DNA of 40,677 nt from a virus: IMG/VR virus record IMGVR_UViG_3300006805_000011, positions 1 to 40,677 of that record. One strand, given 5' to 3'. Below are positions 13,082 to 40,677 of the stretch, one piece after another. Position numbers and translations under genes: made by a program. The notes under the pieces are model-generated. The model saw only the letters and a program-made list of their open reading frames with translations. It did no database searches and had not been told where the DNA came from. The number at the start of each line of letters is the position of its first letter. The stretch's first letter is position 1.

Positions 13082-14182
13082 TTAAGCATGCCACTCGAAC
13101 TTAACTTTTTCTTTCTCGCCGTACCACTGCCATTGAAACGCCTGCTGTGCGTCTGAAATACTTGGTGGCACTCCCTCAATATACATACGCCCAGTGCTTG
13201 GACACACCATTTTCAGCATGTGTATATCTTCGCCGTCATCAATCGGTAATTTAAAAAGCTCATAATCTTTCCAGCGCGAAATGCTTTCCCCCTTCAGGGC
13301 CTCAAAGATTTTCTCCATGCCAATGTTCTCAATCAAAAGCCTTCTCACCTCAGAATTTTTTTCGTCTAAAATCCATTCCGGCTGCCACTTTTCGCGCATG
13401 ACGCGGCCCATGCGCTCCGGAATTTGGATGTTGTGAAAATGATACAGCTTGATTTCCGATCCTAGCTCAACTGAGGTTTCGCTTTCGGCGTGAAGCTCGA
13501 AAATGGGCAGCCTCCAATCATCCTGTGTCTCCCCCACCTCGACAAGCTGCACCTTGTGTGGCTTCGGGAGCACCATGTGAAATTCTTTCGCCCAAAATGC
13601 GATAGGGCAATGCCTTGAGAAGTTAATAAAGAGCTGGAATTTCGCGTCATCAAACTGTGCGCCCAACGCTTTCGCGATTGAATACCTCGCAGCCCAGTAA
13701 GACCAAAACGTGCCCAGATAGAAACTTGAACGCAGGCTCGAATCCAGGCTCCAACGCAGGCTCGGAAGCATGTTCGAACGCATGCTCGAATGCAGGCTCG
13801 AATCCAGGCTTGAACGTAGGCTTGAACGTAGGCTCAACTCCAGGCTCAACTCCAGGCTCGAATACAGGCTCGAACGCATGCTCGAATGCAGGCTCGAATC
13901 CAGGCTTGAACGTAGGCTTGAACGTAGGCTCAACTCCAGGCTCAACTCCAGGCTCGAATACAGGCTTGAACGCAGGCTTGAACGCAGGCTTGAAATTTGG
14001 CCCGCAAACGATCCCGTGGTTGGGAACCGCTCTCCCATGAGCGCATACATCGCGCGGGCAGTTCGCTCTTCGTCTTCTTTTGTCGTTTGCTCAGATTGCC
14101 ATGCCACGACTTCGCGCACAATTTCGCTCGCTCGCTTTTTTTGATCTTCAGTGATGTCAGATTTGGATATTTTCTTACTCAT
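13082..14182 (-). CDS. DUF6745-like repeat protein (SSLx tetrapeptide repeats)
   Basis: About 366 residues. The start at MSKKISKSD is fixed by an ATGA overlap with the upstream gene's stop and by GGAGG 10 nt before. A helical N-terminus is followed by about 22 tandem tetrapeptides of SSL(R/Y/E/D/H) or LSL(E/R), encoded by a 12-bp DNA repeat. A globular C-terminal half follows with PIAFWAKEFH, SWKDYELFKLPID and the ending MVCPSTGRMYIEGVPP...AFQWQWYG. That last pattern (cPSTGr.Y...VPP......a.W) resembles the C-terminus of DUF6745 proteins as I recall it. The function of that family is unknown. The gene lies in an accessory-looking section of the leftward block with its companion downstream. Confidence 0.78.
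   Translation of the reverse strand: MSKKISKSDITEDQKKRASEIVREVVAWQSEQTTKEDEERTARAMYALMGERFPTTGSFAGQISSLRSSLRSSLYSSLELSLELSLRSSLRSSLDSSLHSSMRSSLYSSLELSLELSLRSSLRSSLDSSLHSSMRSNMLPSLRWSLDSSLRSSFYLGTFWSYWAARYSIAKALGAQFDDAKFQLFINFSRHCPIAFWAKEFHMVLPKPHKVQLVEVGETQDDWRLPIFELHAESETSVELGSEIKLYHFHNIQIPERMGRVMREKWQPEWILDEKNSEVRRLLIENIGMEKIFEALKGESISRWKDYELFKLPIDDGEDIHMLKMVCPSTGRMYIEGVPPSISDAQQAFQWQWYGEKEKVKFEWHA
13725..13992. repeat. 12-bp tandem repeat array with a 96-bp higher-order duplication
   Basis: About 22 units of a 12-bp sequence of the form AGGCTYGAAYNC run in frame with the 13082-14182 gene (four codons per unit). Within it, 13782-13877 and 13878-13973 are the same 96 bp with a single C/T difference, so eight units were duplicated as a block recently. 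Because 12 is divisible by three, other frames and the opposite strand are also open here, which creates false ORFs. Confidence 0.92.
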
Positions 14183-14502
14183 TTCTTGTCCGCCTCCACC
14201 TCTTCCGAAATCTCGCTTAGCGCATCGTCGCAATTTAACGTTTCCAAACTGCGCCTATGGGCGTTTGCCATCATCCCGCACCACTCCATAAGCTTGTCCC
14301 ATGTATTAGCGGGGATTATTCGAATTGGAATAAGGGTTTGATGAGACAACTTGCTCACCCCCTTCGCACCTTCTAAATCATTTTTCTCGTAAACGTCCGC
14401 GGGATAAATGCACAGGCATTCCCACCCCTCTTGATCTAACCGCGAGTATATCCCCCCACTTTTTGACCATATCGCCCACCCATCAATTCTCTTGCTCATC
14501 AT
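14179..14502 (-). CDS. hypothetical protein (107 aa) upstream of the repeat-protein gene
   Basis: The protein is soluble and mixed alpha/beta, with a Trp-rich start (MSKRIDGWAIWSKSGG) and an acidic C-terminus (EISEEVEADKK). The ATG at 14502, or the adjacent in-frame ATG at 14499, is preceded by AGGTGGAG. Its TGA overlaps the DUF6745-like gene's ATG (ATGA), so both are translated together. I do not recognise the family; the tight coupling suggests that it belongs to the same functional cassette. Confidence 0.7.
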   Translation of the reverse strand: MMSKRIDGWAIWSKSGGIYSRLDQEGWECLCIYPADVYEKNDLEGAKGVSKLSHQTLIPIRIIPANTWDKLMEWCGMMANAHRRSLETLNCDDALSEISEEVEADKK

Positions 14503-29976: not shown

Positions 29977-30246
29977 ATGAAGCCGGACCAGCTTCGATTC
30001 GTTTCCGATGCAGCCAAGGAAGCCCATGACATTCTGGGCGATATCCTACTAGGAGAGACCCCGCTACGCGCATTGCGCGAGGTCCGCCTGTTCCTAGCTA
30101 GACTACACTTTGACGCTCTTAAGTCCATAGAGGAATTCAATGCTCAACATCCTACTGGCTGTAATAGCCGCGATCCTTACATCGGACAGCCAGATTCAAG
30201 TGCGCCCCCAAAACGCGCAGGACGAGCTCCAAGAAAAAAGGCGTGA
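29977..30246 (+). CDS. hypothetical helical protein with basic tail (89 aa)
   Basis: AGGACCA lies 9 nt before the ATG. The N-terminal 60 residues are helical (RFVSDAAKEAHDILGDILLG, LREVRLFLARLHFDALKSIEE). The tail is Pro/Arg/Lys-rich (PPKRAGRAPRKKA). Its last 107 nt overlap the next gene in another frame. It precedes TerL, where a small terminase would be expected, but no helix-turn-helix is evident. Confidence 0.62.
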   Translation: MKPDQLRFVSDAAKEAHDILGDILLGETPLRALREVRLFLARLHFDALKSIEEFNAQHPTGCNSRDPYIGQPDSSAPPKRAGRAPRKKA

Positions 30247-30409
30247 GCTTTTGAGAAAGTGGGATACGTACATTTGGGAACAGCTCCTCAAAGAGCCTCG
30301 CCAGTGTGACATAGAGTTTCACCTCCCCCAATGTCGCAGACATGAACAATTCCTCATTAACACCAGACCAGAGAGTCTTAGAGGCCCTCAAAACATTAGA
30401 ACAAGCTAG
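30140..30409 (+). CDS. small membrane-anchored helical protein overlapping two neighbours (89 aa)
   Basis: ATG 30140 has AGAGGA 6 nt upstream. The N-terminus is hydrophobic (MLNILLAVIAAILTS, a signal-anchor or signal peptide), followed by a charged helix (QDELQEKRRELLRKWD) and two Cys residues (RQCDIEFHLPQCRRHE). It overlaps the previous gene by 107 nt and TerL by 68 nt in other frames. A hydrophobic anchor plus helix and the overlap recall spanin-type genes, but it stands next to terminase and not to the lysis genes, so this is uncertain. Confidence 0.6.
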   Translation: MLNILLAVIAAILTSDSQIQVRPQNAQDELQEKRRELLRKWDTYIWEQLLKEPRQCDIEFHLPQCRRHEQFLINTRPESLRGPQNIRTS

Positions 30410-31943
30410 AAAGTCTGGCGCTGATTACTGGCGATTATACGCGCATCTTTGCCTTAAGGACCTCTGGTTCTTCATCCGCGTAGCACTTGGATGGGACTGG
30501 TTAGACAGCAAGCTCCACGGCGAAATCCTTATTCCTTTCTATGAAGAAAACAAGGGGTGCGATACAGCCGTTTTCATCCCTCGTGGTCATGGTAAGACCC
30601 TCGTAGCAGCAGCTCGCATTATGCGAGAGATGTTAGCTAACCCTAACGTCGCTATCATGTTCGCCTCGGCAACCGAGGACCTAGCCAACTCACTGGGTTC
30701 AATGATTGCCCAGAACCTCATCGGCAACGACAATATCCAGCGAGCCTTCAAGGGTATAGTTCCGACATCGACGCAAGACACCGATAGGTGGGGCAAGGAC
30801 GGTTACGCGCTCCCTAATAGAAAGCCCCGAACTGACGCAACGCTTTTTTGCTCATCTCTCAAGGGTAACGTCACAGGCAAGCATCCAGAGATAATCTTCC
30901 TAGACGATACGGTAGTACGCACCAATAACACTCCCCAAGGATGGGCGATGACCGAATCCTTCCTGCGCGAGTGTATGATGCTGCTCCCCCCACAAGGAGT
31001 TATCCACGTTACTGGGACTAGATGGCACGACGGCGACCCATACGGCAAGATTCTGGCTGGGCGCATTCACGGCAAGCAAGGCCCATTCCGCACGATGGTT
31101 CTTTCATGCTGGGAAGATGACAATCCACTAAAGGCTCCTACATATCCACGCGCCAAGAGGTGGGGCAAGAGTCACTTTACGGGATACAGTAACGAGCAGT
31201 TAGATGCTATGCGTAAGCCAGAGAGCGAAGGTGGGCTGGGTATTTATTTCGATGCGCAGATGCGGAATGACCCGATACCCGTCGAGCGACAGGACCTTAG
31301 AATATCTGATGTTAATACCTTCTCGGACGATGAGGCACCGGAGTTGGGTGAACTTAGGCTATTTGGCCTAGAAACCACAGCAGGCGGTAAGCCGATTTAT
31401 TCGTTATTGCAAGACCAGGCTGACAAGCTCAGGCTATCCATTCCGATACAGCCGATAGAAGTTAAGCGACAGCGCGGCTCTACCAAGCTAGACCGTATTC
31501 GGGCCTCCCTTGAACCCGTTATGCGCGAGGGGCGATTGTTTGTTAAGTCATGGATGCTAGGCGATAGCTCATCTTCGGATGGGCTCGGATACGAGATTCG
31601 CAGGTTCGGTGCGGCCAAGCATGATGATGTAGTAGACGCTCTGCACATGGCTATTGACTACCTAGCTGGTCAGGCAAGGCCGAGCAAAGGCTCCCCCGCA
31701 GATGTCTACATTGCTTGCGACCTGAGCTTCTCAGAAGAAAGGCGCTCTGACTGGACGGTGGCGATGGCGGTAGCTGTTACCGCAGAAGGCAATTTTTATT
31801 TACTAGACTACGATAGGTTTCAGACTAGCTCAGCCTCCGGGCTCGTCGGTCGTTTAATCGAGTTTTTTCAAAAGTGGAATCGAGTGGGCAAGAACCGGCG
31901 TAATGCTGCCAAATCCTACTCTATCGCGCTTAGTTATAAATAG
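30342..31943 (+). CDS. terL: terminase large subunit with permuted nuclease motifs
   Basis: A 533-residue packaging motor. ATPase: Walker A RGHGKT (residues 81-86), Walker B IIFLDD (184-189) and motif VTGTRWHDGDPYG (223-235). The nuclease (RNase H-like) motifs appear in unusual order: FGLETTAGG with the Glu (E344), STKLDRI (380-386), then HDDVVDAL (427-434), which normally closes the domain. After a linker (GQARPSKGSPA) comes DVYIACDLSFSEERRSDWT (454-472), with the Asp-bearing first strand, and YLLDYDRFQ (486-494), which normally open it. The domain therefore looks circularly permuted, with all catalytic acids kept. The total length is normal. It starts 68 nt inside the preceding gene. Confident that it is TerL; the permutation is read directly from motif order. 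Confidence 0.9.
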   Translation: MNNSSLTPDQRVLEALKTLEQARKSGADYWRLYAHLCLKDLWFFIRVALGWDWLDSKLHGEILIPFYEENKGCDTAVFIPRGHGKTLVAAARIMREMLANPNVAIMFASATEDLANSLGSMIAQNLIGNDNIQRAFKGIVPTSTQDTDRWGKDGYALPNRKPRTDATLFCSSLKGNVTGKHPEIIFLDDTVVRTNNTPQGWAMTESFLRECMMLLPPQGVIHVTGTRWHDGDPYGKILAGRIHGKQGPFRTMVLSCWEDDNPLKAPTYPRAKRWGKSHFTGYSNEQLDAMRKPESEGGLGIYFDAQMRNDPIPVERQDLRISDVNTFSDDEAPELGELRLFGLETTAGGKPIYSLLQDQADKLRLSIPIQPIEVKRQRGSTKLDRIRASLEPVMREGRLFVKSWMLGDSSSSDGLGYEIRRFGAAKHDDVVDALHMAIDYLAGQARPSKGSPADVYIACDLSFSEERRSDWTVAMAVAVTAEGNFYLLDYDRFQTSSASGLVGRLIEFFQKWNRVGKNRRNAAKSYSIALSYK

Positions 31944-31950
31944 GAGAATC

Positions 31951-32124
31951 ATGAAAAGAGAACCAATCAATAGCAAGAAGATGCCGGTGCCCTCTAAGCC
32001 GGAGAGTAAGAGAATTACCTACGACGGCTTACAGAGACAGAAGGGCGGCTCTGATGCATCGCACAACCTCCCTGCTCAGAATCCGACAATTGTTAAGGGC
32101 CCCAACAAGTCCGGTAACTGCTAA
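31951..32124 (+). CDS. small basic protein between TerL and portal (57 aa)
   Basis: The true start is ATG 31951 (MKREPINSKKMPVPSK), with TAGGAG 5 nt upstream; the longer frame through the end of TerL is a shadow. It is Lys/Pro/Ser/Asn-rich and likely disordered, ending GPNKSGNC. No family was recognised. Small basic proteins in this location are common in phages and may be packaged or assist assembly. Confidence 0.65.
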   Translation: MKREPINSKKMPVPSKPESKRITYDGLQRQKGGSDASHNLPAQNPTIVKGPNKSGNC

Positions 32125-32138
32125 GGACTAAGCAAACA

Positions 32139-34220
32139 ATGGCCCAGGCTTCTCGCAAGGACGATATTGATGCACGCAAGGTGGCGTGTATTGATAAATT
32201 CATCGATAACTGCGAGAAGTCCTCTACCGTCGTCGTTAAACGGTGGCAGCAGAATTACGACATGTTCGTAAGCGGTAGCCGCTTTGAAGGGAAGAAAGGC
32301 TGGCAATCGCAATTCTCGATTAACAAATTCGCGAACGTCATTCGGTCAGCTCACGGGGAATTGATTAACACAATAGTTAATAACCCCGACTGGATGGACA
32401 TCGTAGAGCGGACGCCTAACAATACCAGGGCAGCTCTGCTTAAGCGACCCATCAAGAAGATAGTTGAATACTACCTAGATAGAGCCAACTTTCGCCGTCA
32501 CGCATCGACCTTCATCCTTAACTCCCTCATCTCGATGGGCAGCTTGTATGTAGGATGGAAGGAAATGCTCATTCAGAATCCTGAGTATGTAGCTGCCAAG
32601 ACGCGCAAGTTACGTCAAGAGGAGATGAGGCGACTAGCTAAGGTGGTAGCTAACCCCAGCGTAGAGTCCGAGCACAACGCAAGCGCGATTACAGCTAACA
32701 TCGAACAAGCCATAGACGATACGGTTGCGATGCTCCAAGGAGAGGAGTCGGCTCCAAAGGAGGATATCCCAGAATATCTCCAATATGGCTGCATTGAATT
32801 TCGAGACTTAAATCACGAGAATATCTTCTGGGAAACTAACGTCGCCTACATGGAAGACTCGGCAGCCAAGGCATGGCGCGAGTTAGTGACGGAATCAGAT
32901 TTAAAGCTCTGGGCTAAGCAGGGATACATCAGCAAGTCTAAGATTAAAGACTTACCGGAGCGTAAGCGTAGAGATAAGGAGGTCTCTTCAAGGTTGCGCA
33001 ACACTAATATCATGCGCACCCCCAACTCACCGAGGGACGACCTTGTAGAGCTAACCTACTACTTTGGCCCTCTTATTATAGATGGGGAGATTAAGAAGGA
33101 TGCTTGGTTCTGCTTAGTCGCCAACGGCTCCCGCATTATCAAAGAAGGCGATTATCCTTACTGGGAACCTCCGGGACATAAAACTCCGGTGGTTAATATG
33201 GCAGTAAGGCAAATCCCTTACCGCGCTACCGGAGCAGGCATCGGTGATAACGTCTACGACATCCAGCGCCAAATGGATAGCAATTGGCACTTAGTTAATG
33301 ATACGTTCCGGTTTGGTATTGCTGGAATAAACGTTGTCAACGTTCAGAAGTTAGTTGATAAGGGCCAGCTAGACGAAGGAATTGAACCCGGAAAAATCAT
33401 TGAAGCCAGGGACAATCCCAAGGCCGTATTTGAGCGTATCAGCCTCACTGACAACCTTGAGAATCAAGTGCATCCCATGCAGACTATCCTACAGTCTGCT
33501 ATCGAAGAAGGTGCCGGTATCAACGACCTCATGTCCGGCGGTAACAACCTACGCTCTCGCACAACCGCAGCCGAGACTAATGCCAGGATGCAGGGCTCTC
33601 TGCGCAATGTAAACACAATCGCTCTTGACCTAGAGCAGAATTTCCTTATCCCAGTCCTAGAGAAGGTGCTCGCTAGGGTGCTTCAATTTGGCCTTGAGGA
33701 TATTCAGCGCAATCCTGACCTAATAGCGCTCTTGGATGAAGCTGAGCTATATGAATTAACCCAGCTCTCCGAGGAAGATAAGATTTCCATCGTTAATCAC
33801 TTCTTTAAATTCAAGATTAACGGATTTAGCGCACGTCAAACCGAAGAGTCTGACCTCATGCGCATGAATGAGCTATTGCAGATAGCGAACTCAGGCGGCC
33901 CCCTCTCTCAACTCATAGACCTTAGAACGCTTCTTAAGCACTGGATGAAGCTAATGAAGCTCGACAAGGATGACGCGCTTATACTCAAAGACGCACCACA
34001 GGCGCAGATAGAAGCAGAGAACGCCGTACTAATGGGTAACCACATTGTTTATCCAGACCCGAACGACAACGATGAGCTTCACTTACAGCTTCAAGGGCCG
34101 TTAGCGCAATCTCCTTACGCTACCCCGGCCCTACAGCAGCACGTCGCCATGCACCAGCAGCAGATGCAGCAAAAACAAATGCAACAGCAAGGCGGTCAAG
34201 GAGAGCCGCCTATTCAGTAA
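32139..34220 (+). CDS. portal protein (podovirus type, 693 aa)
   Basis: The length, and the place after TerL and before the scaffold and coat genes, fit a large portal of the P22/podovirus class. The N-terminus has the typical helical stem-forming opening (WQQNYDMFVSGSRFEGKKGW). The middle has FILNSLISMGSLYVGWKE and IEFRDLNHENIFWE, features of the clip/wing region. The C-terminal ~100 residues are helical and end in a Gln-rich low-complexity tail (HQQQMQQKQMQQQGGQ) like the extended barrel ends of large portals. Twelve copies would form the DNA channel and dock TerL. The start ATG lies 14 nt after the previous stop. Confidence 0.82.
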   Translation: MAQASRKDDIDARKVACIDKFIDNCEKSSTVVVKRWQQNYDMFVSGSRFEGKKGWQSQFSINKFANVIRSAHGELINTIVNNPDWMDIVERTPNNTRAALLKRPIKKIVEYYLDRANFRRHASTFILNSLISMGSLYVGWKEMLIQNPEYVAAKTRKLRQEEMRRLAKVVANPSVESEHNASAITANIEQAIDDTVAMLQGEESAPKEDIPEYLQYGCIEFRDLNHENIFWETNVAYMEDSAAKAWRELVTESDLKLWAKQGYISKSKIKDLPERKRRDKEVSSRLRNTNIMRTPNSPRDDLVELTYYFGPLIIDGEIKKDAWFCLVANGSRIIKEGDYPYWEPPGHKTPVVNMAVRQIPYRATGAGIGDNVYDIQRQMDSNWHLVNDTFRFGIAGINVVNVQKLVDKGQLDEGIEPGKIIEARDNPKAVFERISLTDNLENQVHPMQTILQSAIEEGAGINDLMSGGNNLRSRTTAAETNARMQGSLRNVNTIALDLEQNFLIPVLEKVLARVLQFGLEDIQRNPDLIALLDEAELYELTQLSEEDKISIVNHFFKFKINGFSARQTEESDLMRMNELLQIANSGGPLSQLIDLRTLLKHWMKLMKLDKDDALILKDAPQAQIEAENAVLMGNHIVYPDPNDNDELHLQLQGPLAQSPYATPALQQHVAMHQQQMQQKQMQQQGGQGEPPIQ

Positions 34221-35589: not shown

Positions 35590-36558
35590 ATGCAAACTTG
35601 GGGAGATTTTGACGGAATTATCAACGTCAATGAACTAAGCGAATTTGTGCGACATGCCGCGCAGGACTTGCAAGGATTCGCGCAGCTTTGTAACCCGCCT
35701 ACTGGCAAGGCTCTTGGGCTAGGCAAGGGTGATACCGTTCAGTACATATATTACGCTGATATTGGTATCGCAGGTGGCGAGCTAGACGAGAACGAGGAGG
35801 TTCCGCAGTCTACGCTTACTCCTATTAGCGCAACTTACCAAATCAAGGAGTTTGGAAATTCTCTGCGATGGACGAAGAAGCTAGAAGACCTTTCTCGCCT
35901 CTCCGTCGAAGACGACTTCACCGTTGCTCTTGTTAATGACATGAAGAAGCTGGAGAACAGCCAAGCCTATACACAATTCAAGGCTACTGACTGGATAGCT
36001 TCTTTTAATAGCTCAGCCGATGCATTTGTAACTAACGGCACTACCATTACCGCATGTAACGAAGGACTCACATTCGCTAATCTGCGCTACTTAGTGCGCA
36101 ACGCCGAAAAGAGACTCATTCCGTACTTCGATGGCGAAAGCTATGTTGTTGTAACTGGCGTAGACAGCCTGGACGCTCTTGTATACGAGCAGCCCGGAGC
36201 TGGTGCAACTGGTGCTAACGTAGCCAGTGTGTTCGAGGCTCTTAAGAGAGATTCTGGTATGGCGGCCCTTAACGGCGAATGTGGCCGTGTGGCTAGATGC
36301 CGACTTGTCAAGGATACCCATAAGGTAGCTAAGATGGGCGGATCATCTTCCGGCGAAGGTGCTAACCTGGACGAAACATTCTTAATTGGTGCCGATGCTG
36401 TGCAGAAAGATGTTGCTGAACCATGGTACCTGAGCATTGAAGACAGGGACCATAAGCGCAATATCTCGGTGGCCTACTTGGGGCTTATGATCTGGAATAA
36501 GATCCTTGATCAAACCACGCACTCCAAGGAGCACATCATAAGAGTAGCGTCTGCCTAA
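35590..36558 (+). CDS. major capsid protein, N4 gp56/P22-coat type
   Basis: This 322-residue protein fits the 'N4-gp56 family' coat pattern: KGDTVQYIYYADIGIAGGEL near residue 50 (the 'K-G-x-T-V ... R/Y ... E-x-L-x-E-x-x' opening), then ATYQIKEFGNSLRWTKKLEDL near residues 85-105, then EDRDHKRNISVAYLGLMIWN close to the end. It would assemble on the upstream scaffold into the head shell. The hairpin just after its stop, and the decoration-like gene downstream, are typical of a highly expressed coat gene. Confidence 0.85.
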   Translation: MQTWGDFDGIINVNELSEFVRHAAQDLQGFAQLCNPPTGKALGLGKGDTVQYIYYADIGIAGGELDENEEVPQSTLTPISATYQIKEFGNSLRWTKKLEDLSRLSVEDDFTVALVNDMKKLENSQAYTQFKATDWIASFNSSADAFVTNGTTITACNEGLTFANLRYLVRNAEKRLIPYFDGESYVVVTGVDSLDALVYEQPGAGATGANVASVFEALKRDSGMAALNGECGRVARCRLVKDTHKVAKMGGSSSGEGANLDETFLIGADAVQKDVAEPWYLSIEDRDHKRNISVAYLGLMIWNKILDQTTHSKEHIIRVASA

Positions 36559-40442: not shown

Positions 40443-40677
40443 ATGGCTGAAGTACCGGCAAGAGCCACGCATTATAGCATCATGCCGTTTGGAACGTCTG
40501 GTTTAATACGCACAGACTTCGGCATTACTCTTCTTAAGAATGGAGAGGTTAATGACCTGCCAGTTGATTCTCAGGAAGTAGATACCGGCGTTTATAAGTT
40601 CTTCTTTAATAATGACGGAGAGCACAATTCAGTCTGGACACTAATCGTTACATACGGCGGTGTCGGTTGGATAGAGG
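40443..40677 (+). CDS. 5' part of the 114-aa protein continued at 1-233
   Basis: ATG 40443 follows the upstream stop directly. The frame (MAEVPARATHYSIMPFGTSG...) is open to the right edge and continues in register at position 124, giving 115 codons including the stop. It is annotated as one gene across the join. Family not recognised; structural-region location. Confidence 0.8.
   Translation, partial: MAEVPARATHYSIMPFGTSGLIRTDFGITLLKNGEVNDLPVDSQEVDTGVYKFFFNNDGEHNSVWTLIVTYGGVGWIE
40555..40677. repeat. terminal direct repeat (copy 2 of 2)
   Basis: Exact duplicate of 1-123; see that entry. Removing one copy restores a continuous gene across the join. Confidence 0.95.

Follow-up and report, generated by a model that had tools for sequence, protein, structure and literature searches.

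The terL locus and its gene neighborhood

The window, by which we mean the whole stretch of DNA analyzed (40,677 nt), is a metagenomic record of one uncultured tailed phage. It carries an exact 123-bp direct terminal repeat (positions 1-123 and 40555-40677), which suggests that the genome is complete and measures 40,554 bp. Positions 30342-31943 on the plus strand form one uninterrupted open frame of 533 aa, and the whole protein matches the PHROG family phrog_38 (terminase large subunit; E 1.8e-51). The terminase large subunit (TerL) is found in all tailed phages, evolves slowly and serves as one of their hallmarks. An earlier note on this DNA had claimed that the nuclease domain of this TerL is circularly permuted, and the open reading frame, coordinates and motif positions from which it argued are all as it gave them. 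The gene is laid out as follows.

30342..31943 (+): terL, large terminase subunit with permuted nuclease (single frame; phrog_38)
30342..31286 (+): N-terminal ATPase domain, residues 1-315 (motifs; profile; identity to canonical TerLs)
31287..31355 (+): linker from ATPase to nuclease, residues 316-338, entering beta4 and not beta1 (profile boundaries; model)
31356..31670 (+): nuclease B half (the canonical C-terminal half), residues ~339-443, standing first (phrog_38; HMM; residues)
31671..31700 (+): linker QARPSKGSPA between the original C and N termini, residues 444-453 (sequence; model)
31701..31880 (+): nuclease A half (the canonical N-terminal half), residues ~454-513, standing last (phrog_38; HMM)
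31881..31940 (+): basic C-terminal tail, RVGKNRRNAAKSYSIALSYK (low-confidence model: an extension of alpha1)

The ATPase domain is about 24-36% identical to those of canonical TerLs. Its motifs, Walker A (RGHGKT, 81-86), Walker B (IIFLDD, 184-189) and TGTRWH (224-229), stand in the normal order, as the earlier note had stated, so that the P-loop ATPase, its coupling motif included, is arranged as in a TerL. The gene order around terL is also ordinary, with portal and head genes nearby: an SU10-type portal gene lies downstream (32139-34220; PF23899, E 1.2e-17), followed by a capsid protein gene (35590-36558; PF25209, E 2.1e-7).

Two small genes on the plus strand precede terL (29977-30246 and 30140-30409); the second begins inside the first and runs on into the start of terL. 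Neither has a family match, and by position they resemble the genes for small terminase and spanin upstream of T7 gene 19. Elsewhere in the genome, a 12-nt unit is repeated about 27 times at 13701-14024, within an unassigned ORF on the minus strand (13082-14233), and encodes a four-residue repeat (SLRS/SLDS/SLEL), and the minus-strand gene at 26694-27719 matches phrog_7245 (anti-restriction protein; E 2.3e-69).

Exchanged halves of the nuclease domain

The motifs of the nuclease follow one another in the order FGLE (341-344), STKLDRI (380-386), HDDVVDAL (427-434), DVYIACD (454-460), SDWT (469-472) and YLLDYDRFQ (486-494). The B half, with beta4 and its Glu344, K382, R385 and HDD (427-429), thus stands before the A half, which carries beta1 with Asp460, D470 of SDWT, beta2, beta3 and alpha1, so the protein departs from the canonical element order beta1-beta2-beta3-alpha1-beta4-beta5-HDD. 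Profile comparisons place the two halves next to each other but reversed. In the match to phrog_38, the first half of the nuclease (31326-31679) corresponds to profile positions 608-705 (E 7.5e-15) and the second half (31680-31940) to positions 546-606 (E 3.4e-7); the two ranges adjoin in the profile and are swapped in the window, although the protein as a whole matches the family. Likewise, in Pfam PF17289 (Terminase_6C) the A half aligns at profile positions 1-55 and the HDD end of the B half at 138-153, in a split and reverse-order match that falls under the curated cut-off.

A nuclease-only HMM built from 83 canonical relatives gave two matches in the native order, at model positions 67-160 (37.0 bits) and 4-64 (47.6 bits). 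Restoring the canonical order of the halves and trimming the linker gave a single match of 103.3 bits over positions 4-160, while 200 shuffled sequences reached 3.0 bits at most. HMMER splits the match at the linker, so rotations were not separated until the linker had been trimmed; a rotation scan with a profile including the ATPase was confounded by the missing linker and was set aside. The exchange of halves proposed as a check in the earlier note gave the same outcome with a profile of nine canonical TerLs, in which three separate out-of-order matches in the native order (58.4, 3.6 and 38.3 bits) became one match of 104.6 bits. Since the halves occupy model positions 4-64 and 66/67-160, the core profile is covered in full and is interrupted only once, where alpha1 gives way to the Glu strand beta4. 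This is a small correction to the earlier note, which had placed the new termini between the helix of the second strand and the Glu strand; the helix at the break is the one after the third strand.

The residues expected of an RNase H-fold nuclease (an Asp in beta1, a Glu in beta4 and Asp in the HDD motif) are all present as D460, E344 and D428/D429, in line with the claim that the acidic residues are retained. Seven of the eight positions invariant in the 83 canonical sequences are kept (D460, D470, E344, K382, R385, D428 and D429), and these come from both halves; the eighth is changed from A to S462. Well-conserved nuclease positions that are altered comprise this one together with Y to M394, H to V401 and E to G416. 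The old ends are joined, as had been claimed, by GQARPSKGSPA, located at residues 443-453. No second copy of either nuclease half was found in the 40,677-nt record, which bears out the view of a rearrangement and not an extra copy. The swap of motif order is confirmed and is no chance reading of motifs: the halves of the nuclease are exchanged about one clean alpha1/beta4 break, and the core profile is complete.

The structure of residues 311-533 was predicted with AlphaFold2 from an alignment (A5) in which the A and B halves of canonical relatives were entered as separate rows. The permuted domain was modeled with a mean pLDDT of 83.4 and a pTM of 0.82, and a canonical control, the relative L084, with a pLDDT of 87.5 and a pTM of 0.83. 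In the model of the permutant, the first part comprises strands (E) and helices (H) at E25-34, H39-52, E59-62, H72-85, E89-92, H105-110 and H119-131, and the second part E143-150, E162-169, E175-183 and H188-221. The resulting order is beta4-alpha2-beta5-helix-strand-helix-HDD helix-beta1-beta2-beta3-alpha1, and not the canonical strand order that the earlier note had named as a refutation. The control has E17-26, E38-45, E51-59 and H64-78 in its first part and E82-86, H92-106, E111-115, H124-137, E141-143, H149-157 and H165-178 in its second, that is, beta1-beta2-beta3-alpha1-beta4-alpha2-beta5-helix-strand-helix-helix. After rotation, the elements of the two predicted structures correspond one to one, and the full set of strands and helices is present in the permutant model. 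The linker QARPSKGSPA has neither helix nor strand in the model and lies between the HDD helix and beta1. The basic tail forms the end of the predicted helix 188-221 (pLDDT 52-72). The domain thus has the makeup of a circular permutant: core elements once each and rotated, the old ends joined, and the new ends at one loop.

With Foldseek, an aligner that follows sequence order, the permutant model matched viral terminases by one half at a time (53-125 columns, TMq up to 0.40 among well-fitting matches), whereas the L084 control matched the same entries end to end (about 160-220 columns, TMq 0.57-0.85). For example, A0A5Q2WAN5 was aligned over 112 columns with the permutant (TMq 0.40) and 175 with the control (0.71), A0A8S0I2C3 over 61 (0.26) and 176 (0.69), and A0A076GAJ5 over 57 (rmsd 1.0) and 184. 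Among the Foldseek matches listed from the viral structure library, none had the permuted order end to end. A PDB search with the permutant model returned no significant match, as expected of an aligner of this kind. The prediction shows that the permutation and its linker would be sterically feasible; since the halves were separate rows of the alignment and an artificial permutant might fold too, the model speaks to feasibility and not to activity.

Relatives and alternative explanations

All 80 of the nearest relatives (the best 80 of at least 505 IMG/VR relatives) have the canonical nuclease order, so homologues in canonical order exist, as for a natural permutant. Two of these 80, L079 and L104, have large insertions between ATPase and nuclease; that in L079 (about residues 300-530 of the TerL ORF) looks intein-like. 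No second permuted terminase was found in IMG/VR with four degenerate DNA patterns (HDDxxDA then D[WY]T, at the spacing of this gene), or in 84,980 GTDB species genomes with one such pattern; these patterns miss permutants with other motifs or longer linkers, and near-identical records may be absent from the set scanned. The pattern matches that did occur were out of frame, lay in unrelated proteins, or belonged to canonical TerLs with DWT or DYT in the tail. Exact peptide patterns from the whole TerL retrieved only four distant loci, all canonical, and those from the ATPase part or the portal retrieved no close relatives. Searches against named phages with tblastn and blastn gave distant relatives at about 25% identity only, or nothing. 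The motif scans of IMG/VR and GTDB genomes thus yielded no more than one independent permuted sequence, and the permutation is known so far from the single genome of this phage. The literature searched, which takes in few subscription journals, contained no report of a permuted terminase nuclease, and a natural circular permutation of this domain appears not to have been described before.

The solitary occurrence, a permuted order without a homologue, is what might be expected if the true gene were canonical and assembly or cloning had joined its pieces in the wrong order. Such an artefact is unlikely. It would take three wrong joins, each in frame and at exact domain boundaries; the reading frame runs on through all three junctions, and the position of the break coincides exactly with the boundary between alpha1 and beta4. 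A k-mer assembler would also have had no repeat on which to mis-join: the exact repeats that touch 31200-32000 are at most 13 nt long, and there is no useful repeat between the break points, which makes repeat-driven misassembly unlikely. Moreover, the joining stretches, PVERQDLRISDVNTFSDDEAPELGEL and QARPSKGSPA, make sensible linkers. It is about as improbable that the gene is a chimera, in which the A half of another terminase was fused to a TerL that no longer had its own. The best matches of the two halves do differ, the A half being closest to Zobellviridae-like sequences with a DRFKT motif and the B half to the L079/L090/L069 group. In trees, however, the A and B halves each group weakly with L001/L002 (support 0.83 and 0.85), which argues, with modest support and from short segments, against different donors for the halves; the ATPase half groups with L069 and not with L001/L002. 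Composition is also uniform along the gene, with GC3 of 0.57, 0.53 and 0.53 in the ATPase, B and A parts and 0.49-0.57 in the neighboring genes. Even if the chimera were true, the architecture would still be that of a circular permutant.

Slightly less probable still is a real rearrangement whose nuclease is inactive and is either retained for a structural or DNA-binding role in the motor or being lost. The altered conserved positions fit such a loss, and the lack of a second permuted lineage is as expected of a short-lived form. On the other hand, every catalytic acid, whichever half it lies in, has been retained, as have the invariant K and R, and the record yielded no further copy of TerL. 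Tailed phages normally need the terminase cut. The best explanation, to which we assign a probability of roughly 0.8, is that the TerL of this uncultured tailed phage has an RNase H-fold nuclease that is a natural circular permutant. The interpretation given in the earlier note is thus supported.

Proposed function and comparison with known systems

In the simplest origin for the natural permutant, the permutation would have arisen within one gene by an in-frame tandem duplication of the nuclease, after which the outer halves were lost, A from the first copy and B from the second. A GIE read in the shifted frame beyond 31880 (KSGIEWARTGVM) might be taken for a trace of the lost second B half, but it overlaps the well-conserved KWN and is too short to be so interpreted.

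It is plausible that the permuted nuclease is active. DNA would be packaged by an ordinary, unchanged ATPase motor and cut by the permuted nuclease, with a two-metal site formed by D460, E344 and D428/D429. A two-metal cleavage site is usual for this fold (PMC7617512). The linker between the old ends would bring beta1, beta4 and the HDD helix back into their usual three-dimensional positions, from which the usual two-metal cutting may be expected. The ATPase would be tied to beta4 in place of beta1, and the C terminus would be a basic extension of alpha1, replacing the usual tail after the HDD helix. We consider it probable, with less confidence than the permutation itself, that this is the first natural circular permutation of a terminase nuclease, active in packaging, in a protein whose ATPase motor connects to the nuclease at a different strand.

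Models of communication between the TerL ATPase and nuclease rest on a fixed connection from the linker to beta1. If the proposed reading is true, coupling of motor and nuclease need not run through that connection, since in a natural permutant the ATPase is linked to another strand and the position of the C terminus is changed as well. The permuted TerL would then offer a ready-made test of the role of this connection in translocation, nuclease control and portal docking, and a rare case of circular permutation within an essential viral enzyme. It also cautions that profile or structure searches which proceed in sequence order detect only half of a permuted domain.

The closest known TerLs are Zobellviridae-like, namely those of Roseobacter phage SIO1, Vibrio phage ICP2, Pseudomonas phage GP100 and Methylophilales phage MEP401, together with the canonical TerLs of the IMG/VR relatives L069, L070, L079 and L090. 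The permuted TerL shares with all of these the ATPase motifs and their order, the residues D, D, E, K, R and DD, the overall size, and a portal gene after terL. However, the A half precedes the B half in those proteins, whereas B precedes A in the permuted TerL. Since the canonical order is common to all the relatives examined but dispensable for TerL function as such, we class the protein as a variant TerL, which agrees with the family in ATPase, fold, residues and gene context and departs from it only in the order of the nuclease elements. Natural circular permutants among phage enzymes include the adenine methylases of jumbo phages (PMC7824862), which likewise have a circularly permuted catalytic domain but differ from the permuted TerL in fold and in enzyme.
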